Shown here piece by piece: positions 15,961 through 30,319 of a stretch of DNA of 40,875 bases. This DNA comes from a virus: positions 1 to 40,875 of IMG/VR virus record IMGVR_UViG_3300042146_000073. One strand, given 5' to 3'. The position numbers and the translations under genes are program-made. How positions within the stretch are numbered: the first letter of the stretch is position 1; the number at the start of each line of letters is the position of its first letter. The notes under the pieces are model-generated. The model saw only the letters and a list, made by a program, of their open reading frames with translations, ran no database searches and had not been told where the DNA came from.

Positions 15961-16986
15961 ATGTCCGCCATGATGGCCGAGGACGGCCCGCAGCCATTGC
16001 GCTGGGGCCTCAAGATGTACAAGCACCCGGGGTTATTCCTGGGCACCGGCAATCGCTGTGGGCACGACCCATTGGCGCTGGCCGTTGATCGCCTCAGCCT
16101 GCACACGCCCAGCGGTGGGAAATGGCCGAAATTGATTCAGGCCGGCATTGATCGCATTCAGGCGTATTTCAGCAACGCCGGCTCGCTGGAGCCCCTGGCG
16201 CACCTATCCAAGAAACGCAACAAAGACGGCTCGATGCGCCAAAACCGCAGCGAAGCCCGCGAGTCGCATGCCCTGGTGCTGTCGGTAATCTTTACTTGCC
16301 TCGACCTGAAGTCGTTGCGGGTTGGCTACTACACCAACACCGGTGCATTCGTCAGCATTTCCTTTCTCGACATCGCCCGCCGTTGCGACATGACCTGCCA
16401 AGTGAAGGCGCGCGACGACGCTGGCCAGGTGATCGACGGCCAATTCAAAGAGGTGCCGACCTCGCGATTCTGGCGCGCGGTGCGCGACCTCAAGAAGGCC
16501 GGCGCCATTTCCGTGTTTGAGCAGTACGAAGAAAAAGACGCCGGCAAGCGTGCCCTGACCGCGATCAAGGCCTTTAGCGAAAAATTCCTACGGCTGATTG
16601 CCGGCTGGACCGCCAAGCGCGTAGAGAAAGCCCGTAAGCGGGCGCATCAGCGGGTCGGCAGCTTCCTGCTCGGCGCGATTGACGCGGGTGTCGAGAACGT
16701 CAACCAGCGTAAAAATCTGGTCAAAGAGATCCAATCGGCTAACACGAATCGCGAGTTGTTCGGCGCGGCCCCGGCCAAGAATCGCCAGCCGGCCACCGGT
16801 GGCGCGCGCCAGTCCGTCGAGGCGGCGCTACAGCAGGAGTACGCCGAGCATGAGGCCAAAGTATTGGCCAGCATCACGGCTGCCCTGGGGCGTCCGCCGC
16901 GCGGGCTGGAGCAGCTGAAAATGCAGACCCAGCACGGCTGGATCAGCCGCGACGACTTTATGCGTCGACGACTCGGTGTCAGCTAG
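15961..16986 (+). CDS. repA: Plasmid replication initiator, RepA (IncFII-like organisation)
   Basis: This 341-residue basic protein lies just downstream of a leader with antisense-control structure. Residues about 125-200 look like a winged-helix domain (ISFLDIARRCDM, then SRFWRAVRDLKKAGAISVF), followed by a long Lys/Arg-rich helix (FLRLIAGWTAKRVEKARKRAHQR) as in IncFII-type RepA proteins. It would bind an origin nearby, probably in the gene-free region downstream. The start at ATG 15961 is set by AGGGGA; an upstream ATG at 15943 is inside hairpin II. The family call rests mainly on layout and fold pattern, and the primary sequence is far from R1/R100 RepA. Confidence 0.75.
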   Translation: MSAMMAEDGPQPLRWGLKMYKHPGLFLGTGNRCGHDPLALAVDRLSLHTPSGGKWPKLIQAGIDRIQAYFSNAGSLEPLAHLSKKRNKDGSMRQNRSEARESHALVLSVIFTCLDLKSLRVGYYTNTGAFVSISFLDIARRCDMTCQVKARDDAGQVIDGQFKEVPTSRFWRAVRDLKKAGAISVFEQYEEKDAGKRALTAIKAFSEKFLRLIAGWTAKRVEKARKRAHQRVGSFLLGAIDAGVENVNQRKNLVKEIQSANTNRELFGAAPAKNRQPATGGARQSVEAALQQEYAEHEAKVLASITAALGRPPRGLEQLKMQTQHGWISRDDFMRRRLGVS

Positions 16987-17025
16987 CCCGCCACTCTCTC
17001 CCGGCTTCCCATTTAACCTCCCCTG

Positions 17026-17067
17026 ACCGCCAGGGCGCCCCGCTATGGGCGCGCTCAGGCGGTTTTG
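17026..17067 (+). terminator. Nested hairpin terminator after repA
   Basis: The outer stem ACCGCC/GGCGGT encloses a second stem GCGCCC/GGGCGC, followed by TTTTG. Confidence 0.65.
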
Positions 17068-17843
17068 TGCTTGCCCCTCCCCCATTCCCCAGCGTTGCGC
17101 GCAAAAACGGCCCAAACAGCCCGTGCTGCGCCCAAATCGCCATCCTCCCCGAGCGTTACCCCCTCCTTTTGCCGGCGCGAGCGCCGCGCCTCAGAATTTA
17201 ACTCACACCCTCCAAATATTAAGTCCCCCTAGAGTTGGTTTAAGTCAGTGTTGGTCTTTCCCGCTATACAACTAGAGAAGCCTGGCCAGGCTACGCCTGT
17301 CCTAGTAATGCCTCGGCTATGCCGAGAACGGTTTAGGGGGCTGGTGCTACGCCCCAGCCACACCGGGGCTACTCGCCCCTACCCAGGCATGAGCCTGCGG
17401 CCCCTGCACCCGCATCACAACGTCGCGCTGTAACGACTGCCGCCGTTCCGTCAGTAAGGCGCCTTCCAGTCGCTGTGGCCCGCGCTAACGACAATTACAC
17501 CCGGTAGATCGAGTGGCGGCCCTTCGCTCCTTCACGCGCCGCCTACGGCTGGCCAGTCGCGCAAGCGCTCCGGCTAACAGTGAGGGGGGTGGGGTCACGC
17601 CCAGGGGCGGCCCGCTGGCCACGTCGGTGCCTGACCGATCGCTGGGGCGATTTTCAGGATGGCCAGACCCTGGGTGATGTTCGGTGTGCTGACGATCGCC
17701 CTGGACGGTTGCCGGCGATCTGGCGAGGGTGGGCGATCACGTCGGCGCCTGGCCGATCGCGCGGAAGTCTCCGGGCAGCCAGACCCTGGGCATGTCCGGC
17801 GGCGTGATGTTCACGCCCATGGGCGCCGGCGCTCGATGATGGA
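17068..17843. other. Gene-free origin-like region
   Basis: No convincing gene is present. Open frames here lack ribosome sites and have protein compositions (Pro/Arg/His-rich) typical of chance. The stretch holds a cluster of short hairpins (17287-17396) and a two-copy imperfect repeat of about 117 bp (17621-17850). Lying between repA and parA, it is the best candidate for the plasmid replication origin. Confidence 0.55.
17287..17396. repeat. Array of five short hairpins
   Basis: In order: CAGGC-TAC-GCCTG (17287-17299), CTCGGC-TAT-GCCGAG (17312-17326), GGGGC...GCCCC with an inner CTGG/CCAG alternative (17337-17357), GGGGC-TACTC-GCCCC (17365-17379) and AGGC-ATGA-GCCT (17385-17396). The first, second and fourth have loops starting TAC or TAT. 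The spacing and shared loops indicate a structured DNA or RNA element. Confidence 0.65.
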
Positions 17844-17850
17844 CAAGGAT
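17621..17850. repeat. Two-copy imperfect tandem repeat, about 117 bp period
   Basis: ACGTCGG(T/C)GCCTG(A/G)CCGATCGC occurs at 17621 and 17739, and GCCAGACCCTGGG at 17662 and 17778. The matching order gives a period of 116-118 bp. The copies have diverged and contain small indels, so the duplication is old. Confidence 0.7.
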
Positions 17851-17909
17851 ACTTTTAGGATTGACATAAGGTATTTAATGGATATCCTTTTGGTATCTGT
17901 TAGGTATCT
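17845..17909. promoter_or_regulatory. Partition operator/centromere array 1 with parA promoter
   Basis: Copies of a GGTATC/GGATATCC motif start at 17870, 17880, 17892 and 17903, one helical turn apart, with a further ATAC half site near 17850. A promoter TTGACA (17861-17866) and TATCCT (17883-17888), with 16 bases between them, is overlapped by the repeats, implying autoregulation by the RHH partner. Confidence 0.75.
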
Positions 17910-17923
17910 CTTGAGGGGATTGC

Positions 17924-18580
17924 ATGTCCATTATATTGATTGGTAACACCAAGGGCGGGATCGGCAAATCGACCAACGCGGTGCAGGTCGCGGTGGGGCG
18001 AGCCATCCAGGGTAAGGACGTGCTGCTGGTCAATGCCGACCGGCAATCGTCGTCGTCCAAGGCCATTGGCCGGCGCGACGAGGCCGGTCTTACGCCAAGC
18101 GTGACCCTGGTGGCGTACCCGGATGGGGACCAACTGCGCACCCAAGTGCTGCGCCAGGCGAGCAAATACGACGACATCATCATCGACGCCGGTGGCCGTG
18201 ATAGTTCGGCGTTACGTCACGCGATGATGATCGCCGACGTCATGCTGGTGCCCATTGCTCCGGGTAACTTCGAACTGGACGCGCTGGAGGATGAGCTGGT
18301 GCCGCTGATCAATGAGATTCAAGCATCGCGCGGCGATAACCCGTTGCCGATCTATGCCTACCTCAACATGGCCGAGGCCAATAAATTCTCCAGCGATAAC
18401 CTGGACACCCGAAGGTCGATCGAGAGCTTTCCGGAGTTGCAGTTGTTGGACTTCAATATCGTCAAGCGCAAGGCCATTGCGGCCGCCTCGACCACCGGGC
18501 TATCGGTTCGGGAAATGAAGAACAAGGACTTCAAGGCGGTCAAAGAAATTGACGCGCTGATGGCGGCGCTGTTTAATTAA
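17924..18580 (+). CDS. parA: Partition ATPase, type Ib ParA
   Basis: This 218-residue protein has the deviant Walker A box KGGIGKST (residues 10-17), the A' box VLLVNADRQ (Asp39) and the Walker B-like DDIIIDAGG (about 82-90). The short length and absence of an N-terminal HTH identify the type Ib group, which works with small ribbon-helix-helix partners. It would move plasmid copies apart on the nucleoid. GAGGGG at 17913-17918 supports ATG 17924. It heads a two-gene operon with the RHH gene. Confidence 0.92.
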   Translation: MSIILIGNTKGGIGKSTNAVQVAVGRAIQGKDVLLVNADRQSSSSKAIGRRDEAGLTPSVTLVAYPDGDQLRTQVLRQASKYDDIIIDAGGRDSSALRHAMMIADVMLVPIAPGNFELDALEDELVPLINEIQASRGDNPLPIYAYLNMAEANKFSSDNLDTRRSIESFPELQLLDFNIVKRKAIAAASTTGLSVREMKNKDFKAVKEIDALMAALFN

Positions 18581-18643
18581 GGTATCTATTGGATATCCTA
18601 ACGATATCCAAAGGACCCATTTAGAATATCTGGAAAGTATCTT
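18581..18643. promoter_or_regulatory. Partition array 2 between parA and the RHH gene
   Basis: Related motifs start at 18581 (GGTATCT), 18591 (GGATATCC), 18602 (CGATATCC), 18624 (GAATATCT) and 18636 (AGTATCTT), again spaced near multiples of one helical turn. Confidence 0.75.
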
Positions 18644-18895
18644 ATGTCAGTAATCAAGCGCGCACCCAAGACAGCGGCAGCCGACCCAGCTTCGGAACAG
18701 GCAGCCATCAGAGCGGCGGCCACGGCGCCGGACAGCAACCTGAAAAAGAACGTGCGCGGCAAGCGCACGATGTTCTCGGTAGGGTTTGAACCCGAGCTGA
18801 TGGCCGAGCTGGACGCGGCCCGGGGCAAGGTCGGGCTGTCGCGGCCGGCGTTCCTAAAGTTGGCCTTGCGCCGCCTGCTCGATGCCGGGGTCTGA
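18644..18895 (+). CDS. parB: Ribbon-helix-helix partition protein (ParB/ParG/Omega-type)
   Basis: This 83-residue protein has a basic, disordered N-terminus (about 35 residues) and a C-terminal RHH domain. The strand is KRTMFSVGF, followed by ELMAELDAARGKVG and SRPAFLKLALRRLLD helices. ParG and Omega have the same order of mobile tail and RHH. It probably binds the GGTATC/GGATATCC arrays on both sides and stimulates ParA. The gene symbol reflects function, not sequence identity to chromosomal ParB. Confidence 0.78.
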   Translation: MSVIKRAPKTAAADPASEQAAIRAAATAPDSNLKKNVRGKRTMFSVGFEPELMAELDAARGKVGLSRPAFLKLALRRLLDAGV

Positions 18896-18931
18896 GGTAA
18901 GTCAGGCCGGAGAATCCTCGGGGGATTAAAA

Positions 18932-18987
18932 AGATATTAAAGGGATATCCTTAGGGTATTCCAAGAGTATCTTTATGGTGGTATATT
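18932..18987. promoter_or_regulatory. Partition array 3 downstream of the RHH gene
   Basis: Motifs occur at 18932 (AGATATT), 18943 (GGATATCC), 18955 (GGTATTCC), 18965 (GAGTATCT) and 18980 (GGTATATT). The array lies in the leader of the next gene, so it may also regulate that gene. Confidence 0.72.
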
Positions 18988-19020
18988 TCGGGCATCCCAA
19001 GAATGGCAAGGATGTTCGAA

Positions 19021-20334
19021 ATGGCCCGCAAAACCGCGATGAAGCATGTCCCCCTAGAAGATCGCCCGGAGTTTCTGGCGCTGGTCGCCGAGCTGGCCAA
19101 TGTCCTGCCCGAACAATTCCCCGCCATCGCCCAGCAATGCGTCGACAAGTACGCCGACGCCGTGCTGGCCGGGCATGTCGAGGTGTTGGACCAGATGGAG
19201 CGAGCCTATAAGGCGCTGGTGTACAAGCTCAACGGTGAAACCATGTTCGGCTGCGGCGCGGATGCCGGCAGCGCGGCCAATGTCTTGGCGCGCGCCGTGG
19301 CGGCCGAGCCGGGGCAGGTGCCGACGTGGGGCCGGTGCGGCGAGTTCCTGCTGGAAGTGGAGGGCATGCGCATTCGCGTTCAGTTCAAATCCAACATGCT
19401 GAGCAATCATCACAGCTGCGACCTGCACGCGGTCGATCTGGACCGGCCATTTTTGAGCACGACCGGCTACCGTAGCGCCGGCGTGGCGGCCACGTCCTGC
19501 CTGGGGGAAAGCGTCGAGCAGGCAGTGCGGCGCATGGTGCTGGATCTGCTGCAGAACGAGGGCAAGCCCAAGCCGATCGTCGTGGATCAGTTTTCGAAAG
19601 CGGCCGCCGAGAAGCGTCCGCAGTGGCTGGTTGATGCGCTGGCTGGCGTGCGCACCAATGGCCAGTTGGCCATGTTCGGCGATGCGCCGAAGGACCCTGC
19701 GGCCAAGGTGCCGCTGAGCAACGCCGAGCGGCAAAAGGCCTTTCGCGAGCGCAAGCGTGCGGAGAAAGAAGCGGCCAAGGGCGCGGGCCTGATATCGCTG
19801 TCGCTGGCCCGGGAGGATCTGTCTTATTTGTGGTGGGCCGTGGACGTGTTCCAGACGGCGCGACGGGATCTTGAGCACCTTAAACAGCCGTACGTGCAGG
19901 AGCGGCTGGCCAAGGTGTTTGGCGGTTGCCCGTGGTGGACGCCCGACGCGCTGGAAAAGCTGGGGCAGGACCAAGGGATTTTGAATGGTGAAAAGCGCGT
20001 TGAGGCTGAGCGCAAGCGCGGTTGGAAGAACTACGACGACCAGTGCAAATACACCGACAAACTGGCGGCCGAGCTGGCCGAGGCTCGCGGCGAAATTCAG
20101 CGCCTGCAAAGTGGCCTGAAGGAGATTGCCGCCGAAATGGGCGGTGTGGCACCGGCGCCGCTCGCCCAAGGCGCCGACGTGGCCGAGTTGCGCCGGCGGA
20201 TTGCCTCCCTGGAGCAGCAGAACGCCATGGAGATTGCCGACCGGGCCAAGGCCTTCGACGCCGTGGCGGTGTTGACGGCGCGGCTCAAGGCCGCCGGTCT
20301 ACCGACTGATTACCGCCGGCAGCCGGGCGAGTAG
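19021..20334 (+). CDS. Plasmid-type accessory protein with C-terminal coiled coil
   Basis: This protein of about 437 residues has an unknown function. The middle (about 90-150) holds a domain with GEFLLEVEGMRIRVQFKSN and PFLSTTGYRS, a pattern I associate with plasmid-borne accessory proteins. Around residue 235 there is SNAERQKAFRERKRAEKEA, a basic helix. The last 100 residues (LAAELAEARGEIQRLQ and onward) are a coiled coil. It follows the partition genes with array 3 in its leader, so a role in plasmid stability is plausible but unproven. AAGGA at 19008-19012 favours ATG 19021 over ATG 19003 or 19012. Confidence 0.75.
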   Translation: MARKTAMKHVPLEDRPEFLALVAELANVLPEQFPAIAQQCVDKYADAVLAGHVEVLDQMERAYKALVYKLNGETMFGCGADAGSAANVLARAVAAEPGQVPTWGRCGEFLLEVEGMRIRVQFKSNMLSNHHSCDLHAVDLDRPFLSTTGYRSAGVAATSCLGESVEQAVRRMVLDLLQNEGKPKPIVVDQFSKAAAEKRPQWLVDALAGVRTNGQLAMFGDAPKDPAAKVPLSNAERQKAFRERKRAEKEAAKGAGLISLSLAREDLSYLWWAVDVFQTARRDLEHLKQPYVQERLAKVFGGCPWWTPDALEKLGQDQGILNGEKRVEAERKRGWKNYDDQCKYTDKLAAELAEARGEIQRLQSGLKEIAAEMGGVAPAPLAQGADVAELRRRIASLEQQNAMEIADRAKAFDAVAVLTARLKAAGLPTDYRRQPGE

Positions 20335-20340
20335 CGCCGG

Positions 20341-20354
20341 CGTTACGCGTAACG
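20341..20354. repeat. Dispersed palindrome CGTTACGCGTAACG
   Basis: The perfect palindrome starts six bases after the stop of the coiled-coil protein gene. Confidence 0.8.
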
Positions 20355-20364
20355 CGTCGAGATA

Positions 20365-20420
20365 TTTAGGATCAAAGAGCCTAAATTGTGTTGTACATCT
20401 AGGCTCTTTGAGCCTATAAT
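20365..20420 (+). promoter_or_regulatory. Promoter with two operators (accessory operon 1)
   Basis: TTGTAC (20391-20396) and a perfect TATAAT (20415-20420) are 18 bases apart. The spacer contains the palindrome TAGGCTC-TTT-GAGCCTA (20400-20416), and TTTAGG-N9-CCTAAA (20365-20385) lies upstream. A repressor bound at the palindrome would block this promoter. Confidence 0.8.
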
Positions 20421-20493
20421 TCGTGCTGTTGGTGGCATGCAGAAAGCCACTCGACTCTGAGGGGGCTAGCCATGCCGCCGGCGGAGAACGAGA

Positions 20494-20781
20494 TTGAAAC
20501 TTTCTGAGGTGGCGACCATCCGCACGAACTTTCCCGAGGCGCATTTCTGGTTGGTTCGGCGGGGCTCAGCGGCGCGGTGCGGCGAGCCGATCCGGGTGTT
20601 TAACCCCGAGCATATCGGGGTCCGGGTCGAGCGAATCGACCTGCTGTTACCGGATTACCTGTTCTACTGTTTCGCGGCGATTCATCAGCGGGGCAACTGG
20701 CAGCAGGTGGCCACCGGGACGCTGAGCCTGGTCAATATCCGTGTTTCAGACGTTCGACGTATCGAGCTGTCACCACGGTGA
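20494..20781 (+). CDS. Solitary HsdS-like (restriction specificity) domain protein
   Basis: At 95 residues this resembles a single half-domain of a type I restriction specificity subunit: KLSEVATIRTNFPEAHFW, then VRRGSAARCGEPIRVFNP, LPDYLFYCFAAI and GTLSLVNIRVSDVRRIEL, the usual ending. No HsdM or HsdR is present. The likely start is TTG 20494, served by GGAGA at 20483-20487; an 11-codon frame (20472-20507) overlaps it. It is first in an operon under the strong operator-controlled promoter at 20391-20420. Possible roles are an antirestriction decoy or a DNA-binding regulator. Confidence 0.65.
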   Translation: MKLSEVATIRTNFPEAHFWLVRRGSAARCGEPIRVFNPEHIGVRVERIDLLLPDYLFYCFAAIHQRGNWQQVATGTLSLVNIRVSDVRRIELSPR

Positions 20782-20834
20782 GAAGGGGGCCGCAAGGCCC
20801 CGGACTCTTACCCGGATCATCAAGGAATACAGGC

Positions 20835-21245
20835 ATGCACATTGATTTACCGCCGATCGGCGAACAGCTAGAGCTGGTGTTTGAGCAGGCCACCAAGGCC
20901 GGTATCAGCCAACTGAAAGCCAACCTCAAGGCCCCGCGGCTGCCGGCGCAAACCGAAGTCGACGAAAGCCAATACTCGCGAACGCACCTGGTGCGCGAGG
21001 CCGACGGCTGGGAGCCGCCGCACCCGGACATTGTCGGCGCCTATTTCCGGCACTTTCAGGCGCACTTTCCCGAGTACGGCACCGACGCCAAGCTGGCGGC
21101 CTTGCTCGGGCTGTCGTCGGATCGGCGGGTGCGGGCGTTCAAGGATGGCAGCAAGGCCGCGCCCTATGGCGTGTGGCGGCGCTTCCTGGTGCTGACCGGA
21201 CGGGCGCCGCAAGAGGTGATCCCGGTGCTGGCCTTTATGGCCTGA
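20835..21245 (+). CDS. Putative HTH regulator
   Basis: This 136-residue protein has an N-terminal amphipathic part and a C-terminal helical part (GTDAKLAALLGLSSDRRVRAFKDG) that reads like a helix-turn-helix: AKLAALLGL / DRRVRAF. The family is not recognised. It follows the HsdS-like gene in one transcript. AAGGA at 20822-20826 supports ATG 20835. It may bind the TAGGC..GCCTA palindromes at either end of this operon. Confidence 0.6.
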   Translation: MHIDLPPIGEQLELVFEQATKAGISQLKANLKAPRLPAQTEVDESQYSRTHLVREADGWEPPHPDIVGAYFRHFQAHFPEYGTDAKLAALLGLSSDRRVRAFKDGSKAAPYGVWRRFLVLTGRAPQEVIPVLAFMA

Positions 21246-21262
21246 GCGTGGCGCGTCGCGAC

Positions 21263-21306
21263 ATAGGCACTTGTGCCTATTACCTTGCTTTAGGCACTTG
21301 TGCCTA
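21263..21306. promoter_or_regulatory. Pair of operators, TAGGCAC-TT-GTGCCTA
   Basis: ATAGGCACTTGTGCCTAT (21263-21280) and TAGGCACTTGTGCCTA (21291-21306) are near-identical perfect palindromes 28 bp apart, directly upstream of the next gene. They resemble the 20400 operator in their outer TAGGC/GCCTA arms. Confidence 0.8.
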
Positions 21307-21336
21307 TCCGTCTTTATCTGGCGTAGGTTGTGGAAC

Positions 21337-21573
21337 ATGGATAATCGAACGCGTTACCTACAGCTGTTGAGCGCGCACGGGATCACCCAGGCCTACAGCG
21401 CCGTGTTGATCACCGCCGTCACCCAGCGCCCTTGTTCCGAACGCACGGTGCGCTCCTGGTTGAATGACCCGGATAAGCCCAGCACCCGACCCTGCCCCGC
21501 GTGGGCCGTCGATGCGGTGGAGAAAGGCATAGGGTATATGCAGCGGGCCGTGGCCCGGCGCAAGGAGGGCTAA
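21337..21573 (+). CDS. Small putative HTH protein
   Basis: At 78 residues, the protein has a likely DNA-binding helix pair around residues 25-50 (VTQRPCSERTVRSWLND). This style is seen in small phage and integrative-element regulators. It is preceded by the double operator at 21263-21306 and is a candidate for the protein that binds there. Confidence 0.6.
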   Translation: MDNRTRYLQLLSAHGITQAYSAVLITAVTQRPCSERTVRSWLNDPDKPSTRPCPAWAVDAVEKGIGYMQRAVARRKEG

Positions 21574-21610
21574 GGCCATGGGCCCGACCGAACAGAAAGG
21601 AGCCCCGGCC

Positions 21611-21856
21611 ATGCGCTCCTACCCATTGCAGCCGTGCCCCTGGTGCAAGTCGCCGGCGAAACTGGATCAGGATTGCGACACCGGCTGGTATGTGAGCTGT
21701 TCGCTTGCGCGTTGCCCGGTCCTGCCGATCAGTGCCGGCTACAAGTTTGCGCACATGGCGGCCATGGCCTGGAACTGTTGCGGCCAGCCCGACCAGTTGC
21801 CCGCGTTGATGCCGACGCCGGCCGGAGTCGCCGCCGCGTTACCCATAACGAACTAA
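21611..21856 (+). CDS. Lar-like zinc-ribbon protein (restriction alleviation type)
   Basis: This 81-residue protein has the pattern of the Lar family: LQPCPWCKSPA (first CxxC), then YVSCSLARC and a FAHMAAMAWN helix where Lar proteins have their AWN motif. Lar proteins of lambdoid phages moderate host restriction-modification. AAAGGAG at 21596-21602 supports ATG 21611 rather than ATG 21578. The stop lies just after the palindrome at 21837. Confidence 0.65.
   Translation: MRSYPLQPCPWCKSPAKLDQDCDTGWYVSCSLARCPVLPISAGYKFAHMAAMAWNCCGQPDQLPALMPTPAGVAAALPITN
21837..21850. repeat. Dispersed palindrome CGTTACCCATAACG
   Basis: The arms CGTTA/TAACG surround the centre CCCA. It covers codons just before the Lar-like stop. 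Confidence 0.7.
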
Positions 21857-21874
21857 AGGAAAGGAACCCCCGCC

Positions 21875-22150
21875 ATGAGTACGACCCCCCGGCACCCGCA
21901 GAACCCCGATCACCCCAACGGCACCTGTGAAGCCTGCGGCCAGCCGTGCGCCGTGTGTGGCCCGCGATGGTGCCCGGAGTGCTACTACGTCAACGGCGTG
22001 CCGCGCGATCTGATGCACGGCTACGACCCGGACAACGAACACCCGGGCGCGGATTACACCCTGGCCGGCCCGCTCGATGAGTGCGAAGGCCTGGACGGCC
22101 AGCCCATCGACTGGCAACCCAGCGAGCTGGACGCCGGGCGTTACCCCTAA
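21875..22150 (+). CDS. Cys-rich small protein
   Basis: This 91-residue protein has CEACGQPCAVCGPRWCPEC between about residues 18 and 36, probably two zinc sites. The rest is acidic and ends in a DAGRYP tail encoded by the palindrome at 22139, whose TAA is the stop. Function is unknown. Confidence 0.62.
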   Translation: MSTTPRHPQNPDHPNGTCEACGQPCAVCGPRWCPECYYVNGVPRDLMHGYDPDNEHPGADYTLAGPLDECEGLDGQPIDWQPSELDAGRYP

Positions 22151-22152
22151 CG
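22139..22152. repeat. Dispersed palindrome CGTTACCCCTAACG
   Basis: The stop codon TAA of the Cys-rich gene forms part of the right arm. Confidence 0.7.
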
Positions 22153-22180
22153 AACCCAACTGAAAGGAACCCCCGCCACT

Positions 22181-22411
22181 ATGAGCAAGCCCCCGATCCC
22201 CCGGCCGGCGCCGCTGGTCGAACTGGAGTCAGGCGAAGAGCTGGCCGCGCTGCGCCGGGATGCCGAGCGCTATCGCTGGCTGCGCGAGCGGGCCGTGCGG
22301 GTGCAGGGCAGCGAGATTTGGTATCAGGGCGCCTATCTGGATCTGCGTGCCGATATCGGCTTGGGCCATGCGCGCGAAGATGCGGAACCCAGGCCTGGAC
22401 GAAAAAGGTAG
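22181..22411 (+). CDS. Small phage-type protein
   Basis: At 76 residues it contains LAALRRDAERYRWLRERA, a helix seen in many small phage hypothetical proteins. The C-terminus is Arg/Pro-rich. Role unknown. It is preceded by GAAAGGA. Confidence 0.6.
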   Translation: MSKPPIPRPAPLVELESGEELAALRRDAERYRWLRERAVRVQGSEIWYQGAYLDLRADIGLGHAREDAEPRPGRKR

Positions 22412-22418
22412 CCCGCCG

Positions 22419-22432
22419 CGTTACGAATAACG
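22419..22432. repeat. Dispersed palindrome CGTTACGAATAACG
   Basis: It lies seven bases after the preceding stop codon and 15 bases before the following terminator stem. Confidence 0.75.
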
Positions 22433-22447
22433 CGTTATATGTGAAAT

Positions 22448-22487
22448 GACCCCCGTCGCCTTGCCAGGTGCCGGGGGTCTTTTTTTG
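22448..22487 (+). terminator. Intrinsic terminator of accessory operon 1
   Basis: GACCCCCG (22448-22455) and CGGGGGTC (22472-22479) form the stem, followed by TTTTTTT. Confidence 0.85.
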
Positions 22488-22504
22488 TGCCCAAGATCAT
22501 CATA

Positions 22505-23830: not shown

Positions 23831-24267
23831 TGGCCGCGAAGAAAGCCAAAGCCCCCGAGGCGCTGACCCTGGCCAGTGCCCAGGCGCTGGAGACGCGCGC
23901 CATGAAACTGGTGGCGGCGATCGAGCAGGTCGACAGCGCCGACGATCTGGAAGAGGCCGGCGATTACGTGCGCTGGTGGGTCGGGCGGATGGTCGAGGCC
24001 GGTTATCACCCGATCGCCGCCGAAGGCTTTGCGGCGGCTGGGCGCAAGGCGGTGGCCGCCGCCCAGGTGCGCCTCGGCGTGCAGCGCGACGCCCCGGGGC
24101 TGCCCAAGAGTGAGGCCGGTGCGCTGGATGCCGGCTATTTCAAGACCCGGCTCAAAGGCATTGTGGCCGTGCTGTCGAACTACACCCCAACCGAGCTGGC
24201 CCGCGAGTGCGCGCGCCTGGCACGGCGTGCTGATCCGCGCGTGTTGCAGGAGGACGAGTTTCAATGA
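23830..24267 (+). CDS. Hypothetical protein with shared AREC module
   Basis: In this 145-residue protein the N-terminal half is helical (ALETRAMKLVAAIEQVDSADDLEEAGDY is a long amphipathic stretch). The C-terminal 45 residues carry the module shared with the 22843 protein. Start ATG 23830 overlaps the previous TAA. Function is unknown. Confidence 0.62.
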   Translation: MAAKKAKAPEALTLASAQALETRAMKLVAAIEQVDSADDLEEAGDYVRWWVGRMVEAGYHPIAAEGFAAAGRKAVAAAQVRLGVQRDAPGLPKSEAGALDAGYFKTRLKGIVAVLSNYTPTELARECARLARRADPRVLQEDEFQ

Positions 24268-24344
24268 GCGCGCGGGGTGATATCGGTTGCGGCGTTACCG
24301 TAACGGCGGTTTACTGCGCGGCATCAAGTGAGGGGGTCGAGTGA
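24264..24344 (+). CDS. 26-residue ORF coupling two genes
   Basis: An ATG-to-TGA frame starts within the previous stop (ATGA) and ends within the next start (GTGA), so ribosomes could pass from one gene to the next. It contains the palindrome at 24293. It may encode no functional peptide. Confidence 0.4.
   Translation: MSARGDIGCGVTVTAVYCAASSEGVE
24293..24305. repeat. Dispersed palindrome CGTTAC-C-GTAACG
   Basis: A perfect 13-bp palindrome inside the 26-codon ORF. Confidence 0.75.
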
Positions 24345-24583
24345 AGCGCAAAGGGTTTGATGAGGGGCAGTTGCTGGAGCTGATTGCCGGCGGTTCGGTG
24401 CGCGAGTGCAAGGCGGCACGCCACGGCGAGCGCTGGGCGGTCTATGTGCGCCTGGGCGGCCCGACGTCGAACTGGCTGGCCGTGCGCTCGCAACGAGAGC
24501 CGGTGCGGACTTGGGCCAGCCTCGACACCCTGGAGCGTTTCACCAGTGGCGCGGGGATTCGTTCGTTTGCCGTCGAGTCGTGA
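24341..24583 (+). CDS. ParC-like partition-associated small protein (tentative)
   Basis: This 80-residue basic protein starts with GTG after GAGGGGG. Its pattern (GQLLELIAGGSVRECKAARHGERW, then NWLAVRSQREPVRTWASLDTLERF and a short AGI-F-VE tail) resembles the small ParC-named partition-associated family seen beside plasmid and integrative-element genes. The assignment is by memory of the pattern only. The stop TGA is within the palindrome at 24580. Confidence 0.55.
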   Translation: MKRKGFDEGQLLELIAGGSVRECKAARHGERWAVYVRLGGPTSNWLAVRSQREPVRTWASLDTLERFTSGAGIRSFAVES

Positions 24584-24591
24584 CGCGTCAC
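24580..24591. repeat. Dispersed palindrome GTGACGCGTCAC
   Basis: It contains the TGA stop of the ParC-like gene and lies nine bases before a terminator stem. Confidence 0.8.
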
Positions 24592-24600
24592 ATGCTCAAT

Positions 24601-24631
24601 AAAAAGCCCCGAACCAGTCGGGGCTTTTTTA
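24601..24631. terminator. Bidirectional terminator between convergent genes
   Basis: AAAAAGCCCCGA and TCGGGGCTTTTTT form the stem. Both strands would have a U-run, serving the plus operon and the minus LuxR-like gene. Confidence 0.85.
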
Positions 24632-24648
24632 TTCTTGGGTGTTGGGGA

Positions 24649-25110
24649 TCAGCTAACGAACTGAAGGGCGGCGGCGAGCTGGAAGCACTGGGCGAGGCGT
24701 GCGCTTTCGTTTTGGCCGCCTGGGCCGCTGGCGGCGCGGTTGATGGTGTTGCGCGCGATGCGCGAGGCGGGAGCAGTCCGGCCGCCACGACGGGTCTGGT
24801 TACGGTTGCCGTCGTCAAGGTGTTCGGTCGCGCACAGCACTGACAGCATCAGGCACAGCGCGCGGGGAATGAGGACGCCGAGGGTAAAGGCGCGGGACAT
24901 CATATGTGGGGCGGTTTTGGCGCCGAGCTTGGCTTTGATGTTGCGTTCGATCAGTCGAAAACTGTTGCTGTCCAGGCCGATCAGCGTGCCGATGGTGTTG
25001 GGACTTTCACCATCGGCGAGGCCTACCAGTACGCGTAACTCGGTGTCATTGAGCGCCTGACCTGGCCGCCCGATAACCTCTTCGCCGTGAATGTCCTTTT
25101 CAGCGTACAT
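24649..25110 (-). CDS. LuxR-type HTH regulator
   Basis: In this 153-residue protein, residues about 19-80 (LNDTELRVLVGLADGESPN and following helices) read as a LuxR C-terminal HTH, with the usual opening of the first helix and IGLDSNSFRLIERNIKAKLG as turn and recognition helix. No sensory domain precedes it; the C-terminal 60 residues are low-complexity. Such stand-alone HTH proteins are common in Pseudomonas prophages. It is divergent from the CI/Cro region and shares its direction with the 25138 gene. Confidence 0.75.
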   Translation of the reverse strand: MYAEKDIHGEEVIGRPGQALNDTELRVLVGLADGESPNTIGTLIGLDSNSFRLIERNIKAKLGAKTAPHMMSRAFTLGVLIPRALCLMLSVLCATEHLDDGNRNQTRRGGRTAPASRIARNTINRAASGPGGQNESARLAQCFQLAAALQFVS

Positions 25111-25137
25111 CGTGTGGTTCCTTGTCCCTGGGATTGG

Positions 25138-25431
25138 TTAAGCGGCTTTAGCGGCTTTGACTGCTTTGAGTTGTCCGGCGATGTTGGACACAAGCAGCAA
25201 ACCTTCGCGCAACTCGGCGGCCAAATTGACGATAAGGTCAAGCGCGGCGTCATGGTCGCCGGTGTCGATCGCGCGCTGGGCAATGGCTTCGATGCCGCCG
25301 GCGGCGGCGGCTTTGCGATTCATGGTGACGCACAGCCGGCGCTGGGTCTCTTCGGTGAAAATGACGATACCGGCGCTAAGGGTAAGCGCGGCGGTGGCGG
25401 TGTCGAGTGCGGTCAAAAGTCCTGGGTTCAT
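25138..25431 (-). CDS. Small Ala/Leu-rich protein
   Basis: This 97-residue protein is of unknown function. It is mostly helical, with FTEETQRRLCVTMNRKAAAAGG and ALDLIVNLAAELREGLLLV stretches. It is upstream of the LuxR-like gene on the same strand and probably co-transcribed. A TTACACTT/AAGTGTAA palindrome lies 24 bp upstream of its start. Confidence 0.65.
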   Translation of the reverse strand: MNPGLLTALDTATAALTLSAGIVIFTEETQRRLCVTMNRKAAAAGGIEAIAQRAIDTGDHDAALDLIVNLAAELREGLLLVSNIAGQLKAVKAAKAA

Positions 25432-25454
25432 ATCAGATTACTACCTTGCAAACT

Positions 25455-25472
25455 GTTAATTACACTTAAAGT
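25455..25472. promoter_or_regulatory. Operator-like palindrome TTACACTT/AAGTGTAA
   Basis: A near-perfect palindrome lies upstream of the minus-strand pair 25138/24649. Its right part AAGTGTAAA recurs at 26461-26469 in the repressor/cro gap. Confidence 0.65.
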
Positions 25473-25492
25473 GTAAATCCATGAGTGTTTAT

Positions 25493-25521
25493 GCCCCATC
25501 TTGGGGCGTTTTTCCTTTTTT
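25493..25521 (+). terminator. Plus-strand terminator
   Basis: GCCCCA/TGGGGC with a 3-base loop, followed by GTTTTTCCTTTTTTT. No plus-strand gene precedes it, so it may shield the minus operon or end a short antisense transcript. Confidence 0.65.
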
Positions 25522-25700
25522 TGGCCGGGCTCTTACCTGGAGTTAAGCCTCTATTGATCCAAGGGCGCCACTATAGAGGTCGATACTCGTGATGGCAAAA
25601 GGCAATTGCGGCAAGGGTTTGCTCGACTTTTGTCGAGTTAAGCGCAGAGTACAGCGCGGAACAAAAGGGTGGAAGATGGATATTTCAGAATTCGTGTTTT
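25522..25700. other. Intergenic stretch without a gene
   Basis: Only a stem-loop CTCGAC-TTTT-GTCGAG (25622-25637) is visible. No ORF with a ribosome site is seen. Confidence 0.4.
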
Positions 25701-25717
25701 AAACAGTTTAACTGTAA
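25701..25717. promoter_or_regulatory. Repressor operator-like site downstream of the repressor gene
   Basis: AAACAG-TTTAA-CTGTAA follows the AAACAG-N5-CTGTTT layout. Inside it ACAGTT-T-AACTGT (25703-25715) is a perfect 13-bp palindrome. Confidence 0.6.
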
Positions 25718-25731
25718 ATTGAAGGCGTGGC

Positions 25732-25752
25732 AAAGCCCCGAAGCGGGGCTGG
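25732..25752 (-). terminator. Terminator of the repressor gene
   Basis: On the minus strand AGCCCCG-CTT-CGGGGCT is followed by TTTG, immediately after the repressor stop codon. Confidence 0.7.
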
Positions 25753-25755
25753 CGA

Positions 25756-26415
25756 TTAGCGTAAATGCGTGATCATTCGGACGCGGCCAAGGACATGCAG
25801 GGTTGCCAGTTCCTCGTCGCTTAGGGTGTGATCGGGGTAGTGGTCGCGGCGCTCGGCCTGGATGACGTAATCGCCGGTAAGGGTCTGGCGAATCCAGCGC
25901 AGCCATAGGCGGTCCTTGACCATAATCGCAAACATATCGTCGCGCCTTACGGTGGTTTCGCCCAGGTCGATCAGGGCGCGGTCGCCCTCTTCAATGATGC
26001 CGGCCATGCTGTCGTCTGGGGCTTGGACCAAGAGGATCTTGTCTTTATCCAGCTTGATGCTGTCGAGGAATTGCAGGTGAAAAGCCAAGGCATTATCGCC
26101 GAGGTCGGTCAGGCCGCCACGGCTGGGGATGACCGATTGCGTCGGAATCGCGTAGTTGCGTGTTTCCGGTGACGTGCCGTCGTCGTCAGTCAGGCCGACC
26201 AGATAAGCACCGGGTTTGCCGTACAGCGCGCCCAAGGCAAAGACCATTTCCAGAGGTGGGACGTTAATCCCCAGCTCCCAGTTACCGTAACGCGACGGGA
26301 TGAACTTGGCCCCGGTGATGCGGGTTAGTTCGGTGGCGCAGTCGGCAAAGGTCCAGCCCTTTTGTGCGCGGCACGCCTTCAGTCGAGCGGATATCGTCTC
26401 TTTGATGTCAAACAT
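25756..26415 (-). CDS. CI-like S24 family repressor lacking the catalytic lysine
   Basis: This 219-residue protein has an HTH (about residues 8-55: ARLKACRAQKGWTFADCATELTRI, with NWELG) and a LexA/S24-like C-terminal domain with APDDSM. Ser136 is at the nucleophile position. The stretch that carries the catalytic Lys in LexA/CI (x-x-V-K-R-L) reads LWLRWI here, giving Arg173. No Ala-Gly or Cys-Gly pair is seen in the linker, so RecA-driven self-cleavage is doubtful. The in-frame ATGs at 26436 and 26457 lack good ribosome sites. It is divergent from cro, which is the classical lysogeny switch. Confidence 0.85.
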   Translation of the reverse strand: MFDIKETISARLKACRAQKGWTFADCATELTRITGAKFIPSRYGNWELGINVPPLEMVFALGALYGKPGAYLVGLTDDDGTSPETRNYAIPTQSVIPSRGGLTDLGDNALAFHLQFLDSIKLDKDKILLVQAPDDSMAGIIEEGDRALIDLGETTVRRDDMFAIMVKDRLWLRWIRQTLTGDYVIQAERRDHYPDHTLSDEELATLHVLGRVRMITHLR

Positions 26416-26461
26416 TGGCGTCTCTATCGGGATCATTTCCAGGTTCTGAATATACATTCAA

Positions 26462-26476
26462 AGTGTAAAAAACACT
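26462..26476. promoter_or_regulatory. Operator-like AGTGT-N5-ACACT in the repressor/cro gap
   Basis: An inverted repeat just upstream of the repressor gene. AAGTGTAAA is shared with the palindrome at 25455. Confidence 0.6.
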
Positions 26477-26514
26477 AAAAAGAACTTGTTTTCTCGTTTT
26501 GCGTCGTCCACGAT

Positions 26515-26531
26515 AAACAGCAAATCTGTTT
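26515..26531. promoter_or_regulatory. Operator AAACAG-CAAAT-CTGTTT before cro
   Basis: A perfect 6-bp inverted repeat with a 5-bp centre, 14 bases before the cro start codon. It is the reference member for the sites at 25701, 30834 and (degenerate) 15726. Confidence 0.7.
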
Positions 26532-26545
26532 AAAACGGAATCGCT

Positions 26546-26809
26546 GTGGAACTGAACGCCTGGATTGATAGCCTTTCGCCTCTATCCGCCTCGCAAATAG
26601 CGGCGGATCTGCTGGGTGAGAAACGCCGCACGGTCGATTCCTGGCGTCGTTTCGAGAATCCGCCGTCCTTTCGTGCCGCCTTGAAAATCGTGGTGGTATC
26701 GGGCGGTCGGGTGGACTTTAACGGCATCTACAATCCGTTTTGGCGCGCCTTGGTCGAAGGTCGCGCCAAGTTCAAATGGAACGGCCCGATTCCGAGTTTC
26801 AAGGAATGA
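26546..26809 (+). CDS. Cro-like regulator
   Basis: This 87-residue protein has a GTG start after CGGAA. Residues about 10-40 (LSASQIAADLLGEKRRTVDSWRRF) form an HTH similar in layout to small Cro/transcription activator proteins facing phage repressors. It lies divergent from the repressor with operators between them, and its stop overlaps the next start (ATGA). Confidence 0.7.
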   Translation: MELNAWIDSLSPLSASQIAADLLGEKRRTVDSWRRFENPPSFRAALKIVVVSGGRVDFNGIYNPFWRALVEGRAKFKWNGPIPSFKE

Positions 26810-27399
26810 GCGGGGCTGTCTTTCCGGTCGGCCTGTCCGACATGGTCATTGGCCGCAAGGTTGAGCAGCGCTTTGGTTTGCTCGGCTTGGCGCGTCTGCT
26901 AAAGCTGGTCGAGCTGGTCATTGATCGGGCCGATCCTTCGACCACGGCGCCGTCTGCCGTGCTGGCCTGGGGCGACTTCCTGGCGGCCTTGCACTGCACG
27001 CAAGAGGACGCCGGTGAGTTCCTCAACTATTGCGATCACGCGCGCGTATTGGATCGCGGCAATGACGATGGGCGTTTGCGCCTCACGTTGGTCGGTGAGC
27101 TGGTCGCACGTTTGGTGCCGGCCGAGGCGCCGCCTCTGGCGGCGGGTGCTCGGCAATTGTTCGACAGTGATAAGCAATGGGCCGAGTGGTTCAAGTCCGA
27201 CCTCAACTGTCCGCCGTACCTGGTTAACGACTCCTCAACCCGGCAACTGTTTCGCCGCTGGTGTGCGACCAACGTCACCACCGATGAGGTCGAGGCCGCC
27301 ACCGTGCGTGCCATTAAGGCCGGTGAGGCGCCGCATCCGGCGATCTTGCACGACCATCTGAAAGCCCTACGGGTCGACAAACTTCGCGCCCTCAGTTGA
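26806..27399 (+). CDS. Putative phage replication protein, O-like N-terminal domain
   Basis: The protein has 197 residues. VGLSDMVIGRKVEQRFGLLGLARLL and VLAWGDFLAALHC/EFLNYCDHARVL match the pattern of the Lin1244-type N-terminal domain found in replication initiation proteins of many phages (a winged-helix-like fold). The C-terminal half has no clear helicase-loader motif. It is translationally coupled to cro, as O is downstream of cro in lambda. If correct, this phage would carry both a lytic replication factor and plasmid RepA. Confidence 0.5.
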   Translation: MSGAVFPVGLSDMVIGRKVEQRFGLLGLARLLKLVELVIDRADPSTTAPSAVLAWGDFLAALHCTQEDAGEFLNYCDHARVLDRGNDDGRLRLTLVGELVARLVPAEAPPLAAGARQLFDSDKQWAEWFKSDLNCPPYLVNDSSTRQLFRRWCATNVTTDEVEAATVRAIKAGEAPHPAILHDHLKALRVDKLRALS

Positions 27400-27420
27400 G
27401 TGCGCAGCAAGGGGAATGCT

Positions 27421-27891
27421 GTGTTTTTGATTGCTCTATCTGGCGGCGAGTCCGCTGACCGCGAACGCATTACCGATTGTCTGGTGGGGTCCGGCAAGGC
27501 CCGCCTAGCCGGCTATGCCCTGAACCCGCCGATGCGGCGGGGTGGTTCAGTCAAGAAGTTGCCGCCGCTGGACGGCAAGACCCGCGCGGCCCGGCTGGCT
27601 CAGGCCATTGATGGCTTGGAGTGCCGGCCGCCGGTGGCCGGTGGGCTGGTGATCTTGCATTGCCTGACTCTGGAAGAGGCCGAGGTAGTTCGTGAGAGTG
27701 GCGGTGAGGTGTGGCACGTCTATGGCGCGAAGCCCTCGGCCCTGGTGCCGATTCGTCGTGCCGATCGCATGGTCACGACCGGGGAAAGTGGTTTCGCGCA
27801 TGTTCTGGCGCCGCTTGAGGCGTTGTCGGAGTACCTGTTGGCCATGGGCTTGTCTGCGCGTTCCGGCGTCCTTGAGCGTGCCCGTGGGTGA
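27421..27891 (+). CDS. Hypothetical protein, nucleotide-kinase-like without P-loop (tentative)
   Basis: This 156-residue protein starts with GTG after AAGGGG. The opening FLIALSGGESADRERI resembles the first strand and loop of phage dNMP kinases, but the GKS/T residues of a Walker A box are missing. The later part (LEEAEVVRESGGEVWHVYG, VPIRRADRMVTTGE) also follows that family's second half. It may be a degenerate homolog that has lost catalysis. Confidence in this reading is low. Confidence 0.5.
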   Translation: MFLIALSGGESADRERITDCLVGSGKARLAGYALNPPMRRGGSVKKLPPLDGKTRAARLAQAIDGLECRPPVAGGLVILHCLTLEEAEVVRESGGEVWHVYGAKPSALVPIRRADRMVTTGESGFAHVLAPLEALSEYLLAMGLSARSGVLERARG

Positions 27892-28096
27892 GCTGAGCCG
27901 GGCGCTACCGGCCTATGCCTACGGCGACCCGGCGCGGATCATCGAAGCGCGGCAGATCCGTGAGGGTGGCTGTTCGTTGTGTGAGCGTGCTGAATCGGTG
28001 TTCGGAGTGCAAGTGTGCCTCAGTAATCTGACGTTTCCGGCCTGTCGTGGTGACAGCAAGAAAGGCCACAAGCTGACGCCTAAAGCCGGCGGCTAG
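27878..28096 (+). CDS. Small putative zinc-binding protein
   Basis: This protein of about 72 residues starts at GTG 27878 or 27884 and overlaps the previous gene. GGCSLCERAES, then VCLSN and ACRGDSKKGH supply four Cys and a His, suggesting a zinc finger-like fold. It sits directly before the antiterminator-like gene. Function is unknown. Confidence 0.55.
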   Translation: MPVGELSRALPAYAYGDPARIIEARQIREGGCSLCERAESVFGVQVCLSNLTFPACRGDSKKGHKLTPKAGG

Positions 28097-28104
28097 GGGA
28101 TGTG

Positions 28105-28524
28105 ATGGCAAGGCGCGGACGGAATCAGGGCGGTGTCGGTTATGAGTTGTGGGCCCGCTGGTGTGAGTCGGGCGGCACGGCCAGCGCTGGGCGCTCGATG
28201 CTGGCCAAGTTGATCGACAACAAGGGCGAAATCTTTTTTGGGGGCTCGGGCGGGTCCAGTGAGCCGGCCGACAGCCTGGAAGCGGCGATTGAGTCCCTGG
28301 TGGTCGCCATGGCCGTGACAGCCCCGCTGTGTGCCGACGTGCTGCGCCTGGAGTATGACGCCGGATGGTGGCGGGTCGCCCAGCGCCGAGGCATCCAGAA
28401 TTACGACCCCCGAAGCATTGGCCAGTTTGAGAAGGCCGACGCGTTGGGGATCAGCTTTGCCACCTATAAGCGCCGGCTGTCTGAGGCGCGCGACCTTATC
28501 GAGACTCAGTTGGGGGCTCAATGA
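28105..28524 (+). CDS. Q-like late antiterminator
   Basis: This 139-residue protein is at the end of the early cluster. Residues about 75-100 hold LCADVLRLEYDAGWW; residues 115-138 (ALGISFATYKRRLSEARDLIETQ) form a sigma-like HTH. This pattern fits the antitermination Q family of lambdoid phages, which lets RNA polymerase read through terminators into the late genes. The late region begins near 30.8 kb. AGGGGA precedes ATG 28105. The stop overlaps the next start. Confidence 0.62.
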   Translation: MARRGRNQGGVGYELWARWCESGGTASAGRSMLAKLIDNKGEIFFGGSGGSSEPADSLEAAIESLVVAMAVTAPLCADVLRLEYDAGWWRVAQRRGIQNYDPRSIGQFEKADALGISFATYKRRLSEARDLIETQLGAQ

Positions 28525-28934
28525 ATCTTCACCCGTTGTTTGCTGGATTCAATGGCGAAAGCCCTTACGCCGTAGGGGCTGCCCTCGGTTTTGCCATTCA
28601 CGTCGAGACTGCGCTGGGGCCGCTGCCGCCCACGCTTGACCCGCTGCAACGGGCAAGAATGCACGAGGGTGGGGATCTGGCCGACTTCCGGTTTGCCGGT
28701 GGCTGGGGCGCACCCGGGGCGCATTGCCTGATGTTCGCCAAGCCGCTGACTCGCAATGCCGCCGTCTGGTGGCAAACCGGGGCGCTGTGCATTGACTGCT
28801 ATGGCTCGGGCTTTTGCGTGTCGGTCATGGGCGACGACATGCGCTGCCCGTGCGGGGCTCCGATCAAGATCGAGCAGCGCGACATTCCCGAATGCGCCCA
28901 GGGCCACCACCACGGCCACGCCACGCCTGTTTAG
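28521..28934 (+). CDS. Protein with DnaJ-type zinc finger at the C-terminus
   Basis: This 137-residue protein has a C-terminal CIDCYGSGFC, then CPCGAPIKI and CAQGHHHGH, giving a pattern of CxxC-xGxG-type zinc binding plus a His-rich tail. The N-terminal half (LGFAIHVETALGPLPP) is not recognised. It is coupled by ATGA to the Q-like gene. Function is unknown. Confidence 0.6.
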   Translation: MNLHPLFAGFNGESPYAVGAALGFAIHVETALGPLPPTLDPLQRARMHEGGDLADFRFAGGWGAPGAHCLMFAKPLTRNAAVWWQTGALCIDCYGSGFCVSVMGDDMRCPCGAPIKIEQRDIPECAQGHHHGHATPV

Positions 28935-29053
28935 CCCTATAGCGAATTAGCCCATTAGCGAACCCGGCGCCTTGCGCGCCAGGGCGTCGCTTTGCCTGAA
29001 GAAAGACAACGCCGCCCGCCGGCTTGGCCGTGGGTGGCTGTGAGGCCTGCACC
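28935..29053. other. Intergenic stretch before the integrase
   Basis: A short direct repeat (AGCGAA, 28940 and 28958) and G/C-rich sequence. It could hold an attachment or resolution site for the recombinase, but no clear core with flanking arms is seen. Confidence 0.35.
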
Positions 29054-30319
29054 ATGACCACCCTGAGCGTTACCCTGTCCGATGCCGTGATTAAGCGGCA
29101 TGCCAGCGACCCGAGCATTACCGAACTCAACGACCCCCGGCACCCGCTGCGCTTTCGTTACCGTAACGACCGGAGCAAGGGCAGTTGGCACGTTGTCCGG
29201 CATAACAAGGGCGACATCTGGAGAAAGGCCGCGAACTGGCCCGACGTGCCGGCCCGGGTGATGCTCGACAGCCTGCCGGCGGTGCAGGCGCGTTTGCTGG
29301 CTGATCCAGCTGCACCGACCACCGTGGATGGCTGGGAGCGAGTCGGCCAGGTGCTGGAGTGGTACGCCGAACGCCTGAAGACCGATAGAAGCCTGTCCAA
29401 GAGCCGGCGCGGGTCGACGCTGTCGGCGATCCGCTGCCAGTTGCTGCCGGCCCTGGGGGATCTGCACCTTAATAAGCTGAATGCCGACACCATCGACGGC
29501 CACCTGATCCGGCACATGCAAGCCGAGTACAGCCTGGCTTACATCCGGTCGATGCTGGACGTTTTGAAAGTGGTGTTCGGTACGGCTCTGGTGCTGAAGA
29601 AAGTCACCGTCAACCCGTTGCTTGGGGTGTCGTTCAAGCACTTCACCAAAGCCAAGATCAAACCCAAAGGTGCGCGCTTGCGGCACGTCGCCGTGGTCGA
29701 CCTGCTGGCTGACTGGACCGAGGCCTTTGCCCGCGATCCGGCCGCCGTGGCGTTGCTGGTGGTGATGCTGACCCATGCGACGAGGATCAGCGAGACGCGC
29801 CTGGCCAAGTGGAAAAACATTCATCTGGAGGCGGGGGAGTGGTTCATTCCGGCCGCTGACACCAAATCCCACCGCGACCACCTGTTGCCGCTGACCCCGC
29901 AAGCCGTGGCCTTTTTGCAGCGCTACCGCGACAACCAAAAAGCCCGGGGCTATGTCGGGGCCTACCTGTTCCCCTCGACCACGCATGCCGGCCGCCCGAT
30001 GTCGCGTAGCCAGGCCTTTGCCGTGTTCACCCGCTACGGGGCCGGCGACTGGACCAGTCATGACCTGCGCAAGCTCGCGCCTTCTATATGGGCCAACCTC
30101 GGCGTCGATTCGTTGGTGGGCAAGCTGCTGCTGAACCATGCCCTGTCCGAATTAGAGCGCACCTACTTCCAAGCCCTGGGCGAGTCGGTCAAGCGCAACG
30201 CCCTGGAACGCTGGCACGCCTGGCTGGATGCCCAGGGGTTTGACGCGTTGCAGGACAAGACAGGAGCAAGACGGGCGGAAAAGCCGAAAGCCCTGGACCC
30301 CTCGGGCTGGCTGGCCTAG
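29054..30319 (+). CDS. int: Tyrosine recombinase (integrase/resolvase)
   Basis: This 421-residue protein has an N-terminal DNA-binding half, a core-binding domain (about 105-215) and a catalytic domain. The active-site set is present: Arg244 (ATRISE), Lys271 (TKSHRD), His336-Arg339 (HDLR), His362 (NHAL) and Tyr371 (TYF). Integrases of P2/P4-like phages share this order. In a phage with RepA and ParA it could integrate the genome or resolve dimers. The palindrome CGTTACCGTAACG (29156) lies in its coding region. GAGG at 29042-29045 sets ATG 29054. Confidence 0.92.
   Translation: MTTLSVTLSDAVIKRHASDPSITELNDPRHPLRFRYRNDRSKGSWHVVRHNKGDIWRKAANWPDVPARVMLDSLPAVQARLLADPAAPTTVDGWERVGQVLEWYAERLKTDRSLSKSRRGSTLSAIRCQLLPALGDLHLNKLNADTIDGHLIRHMQAEYSLAYIRSMLDVLKVVFGTALVLKKVTVNPLLGVSFKHFTKAKIKPKGARLRHVAVVDLLADWTEAFARDPAAVALLVVMLTHATRISETRLAKWKNIHLEAGEWFIPAADTKSHRDHLLPLTPQAVAFLQRYRDNQKARGYVGAYLFPSTTHAGRPMSRSQAFAVFTRYGAGDWTSHDLRKLAPSIWANLGVDSLVGKLLLNHALSELERTYFQALGESVKRNALERWHAWLDAQGFDALQDKTGARRAEKPKALDPSGWLA

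Follow-up and report, generated by a model that had tools for sequence, protein, structure and literature searches.

Several temperate phages are kept as plasmids. The prophage of P1 is a low-copy circle with Rep, Par and a tyrosine recombinase, Cre, which resolves dimers, and the prophages of N15, VHML and VP882 are linear and protelomerase-dependent. Here we describe the window, a metagenomic DNA of 40,875 bases (IMG/VR virus record IMGVR_UViG_3300042146_000073), which, judged from sequence comparison, is very probably a temperate phage of Pseudomonas that persists as a prophage in the form of a low-copy circular plasmid, not as a chromosomal insertion. It has the same three kinds of gene as P1 but is ~40 kb long, has another virion and replicon type, and carries a recombinase with a predicted role. 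Its tail sheath is related to that of VHML (41%); unlike the linear phage-plasmids, it has no protelomerase (PF16684) detectable in the window, and its relatives are circular.

The initial annotation called this DNA a phage-plasmid and proposed a search of plasmid databases for circular relatives. Two carry the same genes. The first is pPL-38ph of Pseudomonas lundensis (NZ_CP062157), a complete circular plasmid of 38.4 kb with the same gene set. The second is pHN2 of Pseudomonas sp. HN2 (NZ_CP085886), also complete and circular, whose record (L002/L043) is a head-to-tail dimer of a ~41 kb unit; the two copies are 99.97% identical and one has a deletion of ~500 bases. Both resemble the window in RepA (77–83% identity), tyrosine recombinase (Int; 69–80%), tail, head type, CI, holin and gene order, and differ from it in carrying HicAB, which is not seen in the window; pHN2 differs further in its dimeric record and its partition type (type B, below). 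The 37.6 kb contig of Pseudomonas sp. Au-Pse12 has Int split over its two ends, and three other relatives have terminal repeats (127 bp in G007, 123 bp in G008, and 95 bp in contig C39 of G641, where TerL runs across the ends). A further IMG/VR record, IMGVR_UViG_3300044878_000205 (76588 bp; L123, L124), contains two O-like genes separated by about 38 kb and is possibly a second dimer.

RepA matches at E≤1e-10 in 398 Pseudomonas genomes number only two, which lie on contigs 37.6 and 30.1 kb long. A RepA profile has 14 matches in 13 of 398 genomes drawn from the family, two of these matches being on whole chromosomes (G434 and G479, below). No integrated copy of a RepA-bearing phage was found in these two sets or in one pattern scan of GTDB contigs. 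The relatives are thus not always integrated, nor are the replicon genes degenerate in all of them, the two outcomes named beforehand as counting against a phage-plasmid.

For the window itself, the extrachromosomal state is seen as an end overlap only, as against complete circular records for the isolate relatives. A blastn search of the tail on the head matches positions 1–580 with about 40296–40875 in the same order; the first ~120 bp are identical and scattered mismatches lie beyond, so that the sequence can be joined end to end as a circle of about 40.3 kb and is a complete or nearly complete phage genome. The ends hold two alleles of the gpV region, and several strains were therefore present in the sample. 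Such a mixed population could also yield a chimera in which phage and plasmid sequences were assembled together; we consider this highly improbable, as the same gene order is found in other IMG/VR contigs and in the circular plasmids of isolates, which settles the gene combination against a chimera. The features concerned with plasmid maintenance and its regulation are as follows.

1–580: left-hand arm of the imperfect overlap between the ends, paired with about 40296–40875 (blastn of tail against head)
15817–15865, minus strand: putative antisense-RNA terminator in the RepA leader, a hairpin (15829–15865) followed by a U-run (TTTTTTCTAAG, 15817–15828)
15961–16986, plus strand: RepA, plasmid replication initiator, 341 aa, ATG start (intact frame; homologue annotation)
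16987–17850: non-coding region of 864 bp after RepA, candidate origin inferred from position only
17862–17908: par repeat cluster 1 (AGGTATC/GGATATCC), operator/centromere candidate
17924–18580, plus strand: type A ParA, Walker ATPase with KGGIGKST (Pfam AAA_31, E=9e-17; PHROG 164 ParA-like, E=9e-38)
18580–18642: par repeat cluster 2
18644–18895, plus strand: ribbon-helix-helix (RHH) protein, ParG-like partner, 83 aa (RHH_1, E=9e-4, narrowly missing the Pfam cut-off)
18930–18974: par repeat cluster 3, a 22-nt imperfect inverted repeat
25756–26457, minus strand: CI-type repressor with S24 fold (Peptidase_S24, E=1e-6)
26546–26809, plus strand: Cro/CII-like regulator (position; conservation across relatives)
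26806–27399, plus strand: O-like protein, candidate DnaD/RepA_N-like replisome organizer (predicted structure)
28931–28962: two 16-nt repeats resembling type B par sites, upstream of Int
29024–30319, plus strand: tyrosine recombinase with RISE/HDLR/NHA/TYF catalytic motifs (Phage_integrase, E=3e-17)

RepA is 77–87% identical to proteins of the free circular relatives and about 32–42% identical to a broader group, among them Aeromonas proteins that bear the annotation 'plasmid replication protein repA'. The motifs GTGNRCGH and RSEAR are conserved. The NCBIfam profile RepA_IncFII_LM matches 9 of 29 aligned family members remotely, with a best E of 6e-5 that is below the cut-off. Comparison of a RepA model with the PDB by Foldseek gives no match at E≤0.001, and the winged-helix matches seen on a second look (Z of 6.4 or less) are the usual background.

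The leader of RepA contains a hairpin and U-run on the minus strand, located 183–215 nt ahead of the conserved RepA start in 29/31 homologues, many of which are close relatives rather than independent events, although RepA identity within the set falls as low as about 35%. The same search finds such a structure on the sense strand in 2/31, in random windows in 5/107 and in shuffled sequences in 1/62. On the minus strand the loop reads CGCCAA in several distant members; covariation on a plain alignment is weak, and the stems differ in length. In IncFII-type replicons a short antisense RNA with a hairpin of this kind at its end controls the copy number, and because of this resemblance we infer IncFII-like control here, with the hairpin as putative terminator of a copy-number antisense RNA. 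The description of the replicon as IncFII-like holds in a weak sense, through the remote profile match and the hairpin; there is no Pfam match. A pseudoknot of the IncB/IncI/IncL-M kind between the leader loop and the RepA start region was considered and rejected, since the complementarity is no higher than for shuffled loops.

The partition genes, like RepA, are intact. ParA is 97% identical in pPL-38ph, and the RHH gene adjoins it in all type A members compared. The motif AGGTATC/GGATATCC has 13 matches in the par locus against 1.0 expected and is enriched at the same place in 5/5 type A members; it was picked after reading the window locus, so that the other four are the fairer test. A small ParA, an RHH partner and candidate operator/centromere repeats are the attributes of type Ib (ParF/ParG) systems, to which the locus is assigned by sequence. 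A second arrangement, type B, consists of an unrelated ParA and a small partner beside the CI operon and is present in pHN2, G001, G002, G003, G008, G065, G641, the Delftia plasmid pHQS1 and the Halomonas element. Every complete member tested for both ParA types has one and never both. Plasmids of Aeromonas and Edwardsiella have ParM-annotated loci in place of ParA.

Type B elements have TTAGCTAATTCGCTAA-like repeats at par, and several have them upstream of int and elsewhere as well. Because repeats of this kind lie upstream of int in the window while its own par locus is type A, those at 28931–28962 are likely a leftover of an earlier type B module that was swapped out. In L077 and L078, repeats like those of type B par are also placed near int and TerS (in L077 near 2458–2547, 7049–7067 and 10614–10632), a placement that resembles the dispersed centromere sites of N15.

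The CI repressor, encoded in an intact frame, has Arg in the sequence WLRWIR at the position that we take, from general knowledge of the S24 family, to be that of the catalytic Lys. This holds for all eight CI proteins aligned (W-[LVI]-R-W-I-R), and the Ser position is Ala in pHN2 and Halomonas. Because the expected Lys is replaced, CI is predicted not to cleave itself, and induction may be SOS-independent.

The O-like protein has no Pfam match. An AlphaFold model (pLDDT, the model's own confidence score, 84) has a winged helix in the N-terminal half and is helical in the C-terminal half, and on a second look its best structural matches are RepA_N initiator domains (Z 9.0 for 4pql, 8.6 for 4pt7 and 8.2 for 5kbj), with scores that barely exceed the background of winged-helix regulators; DnaD is also among the matches (Z 7.1, root-mean-square deviation 15.7). 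A replication protein is therefore plausible on the basis of the model, as the initial annotation had it, and the specific likeness to lambda O is not borne out.

Int is the sole tyrosine recombinase of the window, in which no serine resolvase was found. Of 398 Pseudomonas genomes, about 90 have homologues at 37–49% identity, apart from two close matches (79–83%). Two chromosomal regions, in G292 and G229, were read gene by gene; in both, the homologue lies within a prophage, behind DnaC-like and DnaB genes. Another tyrosine recombinase is situated 10–19 kb away in at least 9 of 14 chromosomes among the matches listed (counted by eye; about 4% expected by chance; P about 1e-9), and tRNAs are absent nearby in 17 of 18 chromosomal stretches scanned. 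In a tree built without L063 the window Int is sister to that of G147, where the sequence upstream of Int resembles the DnaC-type context. Since the homologues lie in prophage interiors where these were read, often near a second integrase, the window recombinase is probably a multimer resolvase or a nin-region/lytic-cycle enzyme rather than an integrase. Of the three maintenance systems first proposed, RepA and ParA/RHH thus stand, and the recombinase does not as a third system for maintenance or integration.

The intact catalytic motifs, the PHROG label of integrase and the annotation of homologues as 'site-specific integrase' would also fit a dual-mode element with a functional integrase, a phage able either to insert into the chromosome or to persist as a plasmid. 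We think this unlikely given the interior position of the homologues, the scarcity of tRNAs, the frequent second recombinase and the lack of any integrated RepA-bearing phage in the genomes sampled, where neither integrated relatives nor an integrase at a prophage edge, the marks of an integrating temperate phage, were seen.

Several observations weigh against a circular plasmid prophage. Distant RepA homologues (27–34% identity) are present on two whole chromosomes (G434 and G479), with the tested phage genes absent within 19 kb, and given the limited genome sample an occasional integrated state may exist. RepA is without a confident Pfam or PDB match, and iterons were looked for near RepA, but neither these nor an origin were found. 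No substrate or resolution site of the recombinase was found, the pHN2 dimer may be either real or an assembly artefact, and the window comes from a metagenome and shows a mixture of alleles at its ends.

As a plasmid prophage, the element is predicted to work as follows in copy control, partition, repression and multimer resolution. RepA would initiate replication, and a short antisense RNA from its leader would probably keep the copy number low. ParA and the RHH protein would act on the AGGTATC/GGATATCC repeats around their own genes such that copies are partitioned at division, while CI would silence the lytic genes. On induction, the operon of Cro, the DnaD-like protein and the recombinase would be expressed together with the head, tail and lysis genes to give a contractile-tailed virion. 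The recombinase would most likely resolve genome multimers, or act in the lytic cycle, rather than integrate the phage.

The virion, packaging and lysis genes are all intact and, by Pfam, form a complete set.

197–15580, plus strand: contractile tail (P2/R-pyocin-type) and lysis module
197–778, plus strand: gpV
1165–1491, plus strand: gp25
1488–2378, plus strand: gpJ
2359–3006, plus strand: gpI
3075–6026, plus strand: fibre
7350–8615, plus strand: sheath
8627–9130, plus strand: tube
9593–12139, plus strand: tape measure
12152–12997, plus strand: GpU
13227–14297, plus strand: GpD
14349–15026, plus strand: GH19 (endolysin)
14993–15580, plus strand: Rz
30860–31342, plus strand: lambda-type holin (Phage_holin_3_1)
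32882–39232, plus strand: lambda-type packaging and head module
32882–33436, plus strand: TerS (Nu1)
33396–35486, plus strand: TerL (gpA)
35689–37230, plus strand: lambda portal
36989–39232, plus strand: ClpP protease-capsid fusion

The baseplate is represented by V, W, J and I. A myovirus structural set is thus joined, all in open frames, to intact RepA, ParA, RHH and recombinase genes, as the initial annotation had described. The sheath is nearest to that of phage PS17 (68% identity) and TerL to those of phage F10 and its relatives (about 62%), so that head and tail are of different origin. In one Pseudomonas aeruginosa phage-plasmid (L077; CP124676) a Tn3-family mercury-resistance element (25562–32962) is inserted within the tail sheath gene, and virion formation has probably been lost there. 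This relative lends something to the idea that the window is a defective or domesticated plasmid with phage genes that forms no virions; we hold it quite unlikely, since the window has all its genes for structure, packaging and lysis intact, related contigs recur in IMG/VR, and PARCL1pr, which has the same replicon layout, was deposited as a phage.

More distant relatives share parts of this plan. Two circular plasmids, pACil-blaVCC-1 of Aeromonas caviae (NZ_OR552796) and pEI-2083-2 of Edwardsiella ictaluri (NZ_CP054061), have, like the window, a P2-type contractile tail and gpA terminase together with a RepA homologue (about 31%) and a recombinase (about 40%); they differ in having a 'chromosome segregation protein ParM' locus, not ParA, and in encoding protease and capsid separately. 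In two other circular elements, Pseudomonas phage PARCL1pr and Delftia plasmid pHQS1, the RepA (38–39%), CI, O-like and recombinase (44%) genes are arranged as in the window; the ParA of PARCL1pr belongs to type A (64%) and that of pHQS1 to type B. Unlike the window, both lack contractile-tail genes and have a P27-type small terminase and an HK97-type protease. The view that a P2-like tail, lambda-like head and IncFII-like replicon form a new combination was thus too strong, as pPL-38ph and pHN2 have the same one, and the Aeromonas and Edwardsiella plasmids already pair a contractile tail of this type with a RepA homologue.

RepA, partition, head and tail are, by sequence comparison, exchanged independently between family members. 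RepA at 82–87% identity co-occurs with contractile-tail genes in the window and G001–G003, and in Au-Pse12, G007 and G008 it is found at the same identity with no detectable homologues of these genes. The tail is shared by G003 and G065, whose head is a different one (TerL 27%). G065 retains the tail and core, with RepA swapped for an unrelated 328-aa open reading frame (ORF), which has matching ORFs on two P. aeruginosa phage-plasmids (51% identity) and on plasmids of the P. syringae group (31–34%). There is roughly an even chance that these elements constitute an undescribed, widespread family of circular phage-plasmids of ~40 kb, occurring in both Gamma- and Betaproteobacteria, whose members trade replicon, partition system, head and tail separately and keep CI, Cro, the DnaD-like protein and the recombinase as a stable core, the core CI being non-self-cleaving and induction hence SOS-independent. 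Its members stand in databases largely as hypothetical proteins and the family is little described; a literature search, which did not cover the 2021 Nucleic Acids Research (NAR) phage-plasmid survey, returned no paper naming pPL-38ph or PARCL1pr. The separate swapping of plasmid parts (replicon, partition) and virus parts bears on the origins of phage-plasmids, and the plasmid life of the family is directly testable in the isolates P. lundensis 2T.2.5.2, Pseudomonas sp. HN2 and Pseudomonas sp. Au-Pse12.

A megablast search of positions 15961–30319 against phages gives no match, Rfam gives only a sub-threshold Trp_leader match in the whole window, and PADLOC finds no defence genes among the cargo. 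A conserved 443-aa ORF (19003–20334) follows the partition genes; it has no Pfam match above the cut-off and is kept in most relatives. Relatives already carry resistance genes: besides the mercury-resistance element of L077, the blaVCC-1 carbapenemase gene is located between tail genes of pACil-blaVCC-1 (L079; 26321–27175).

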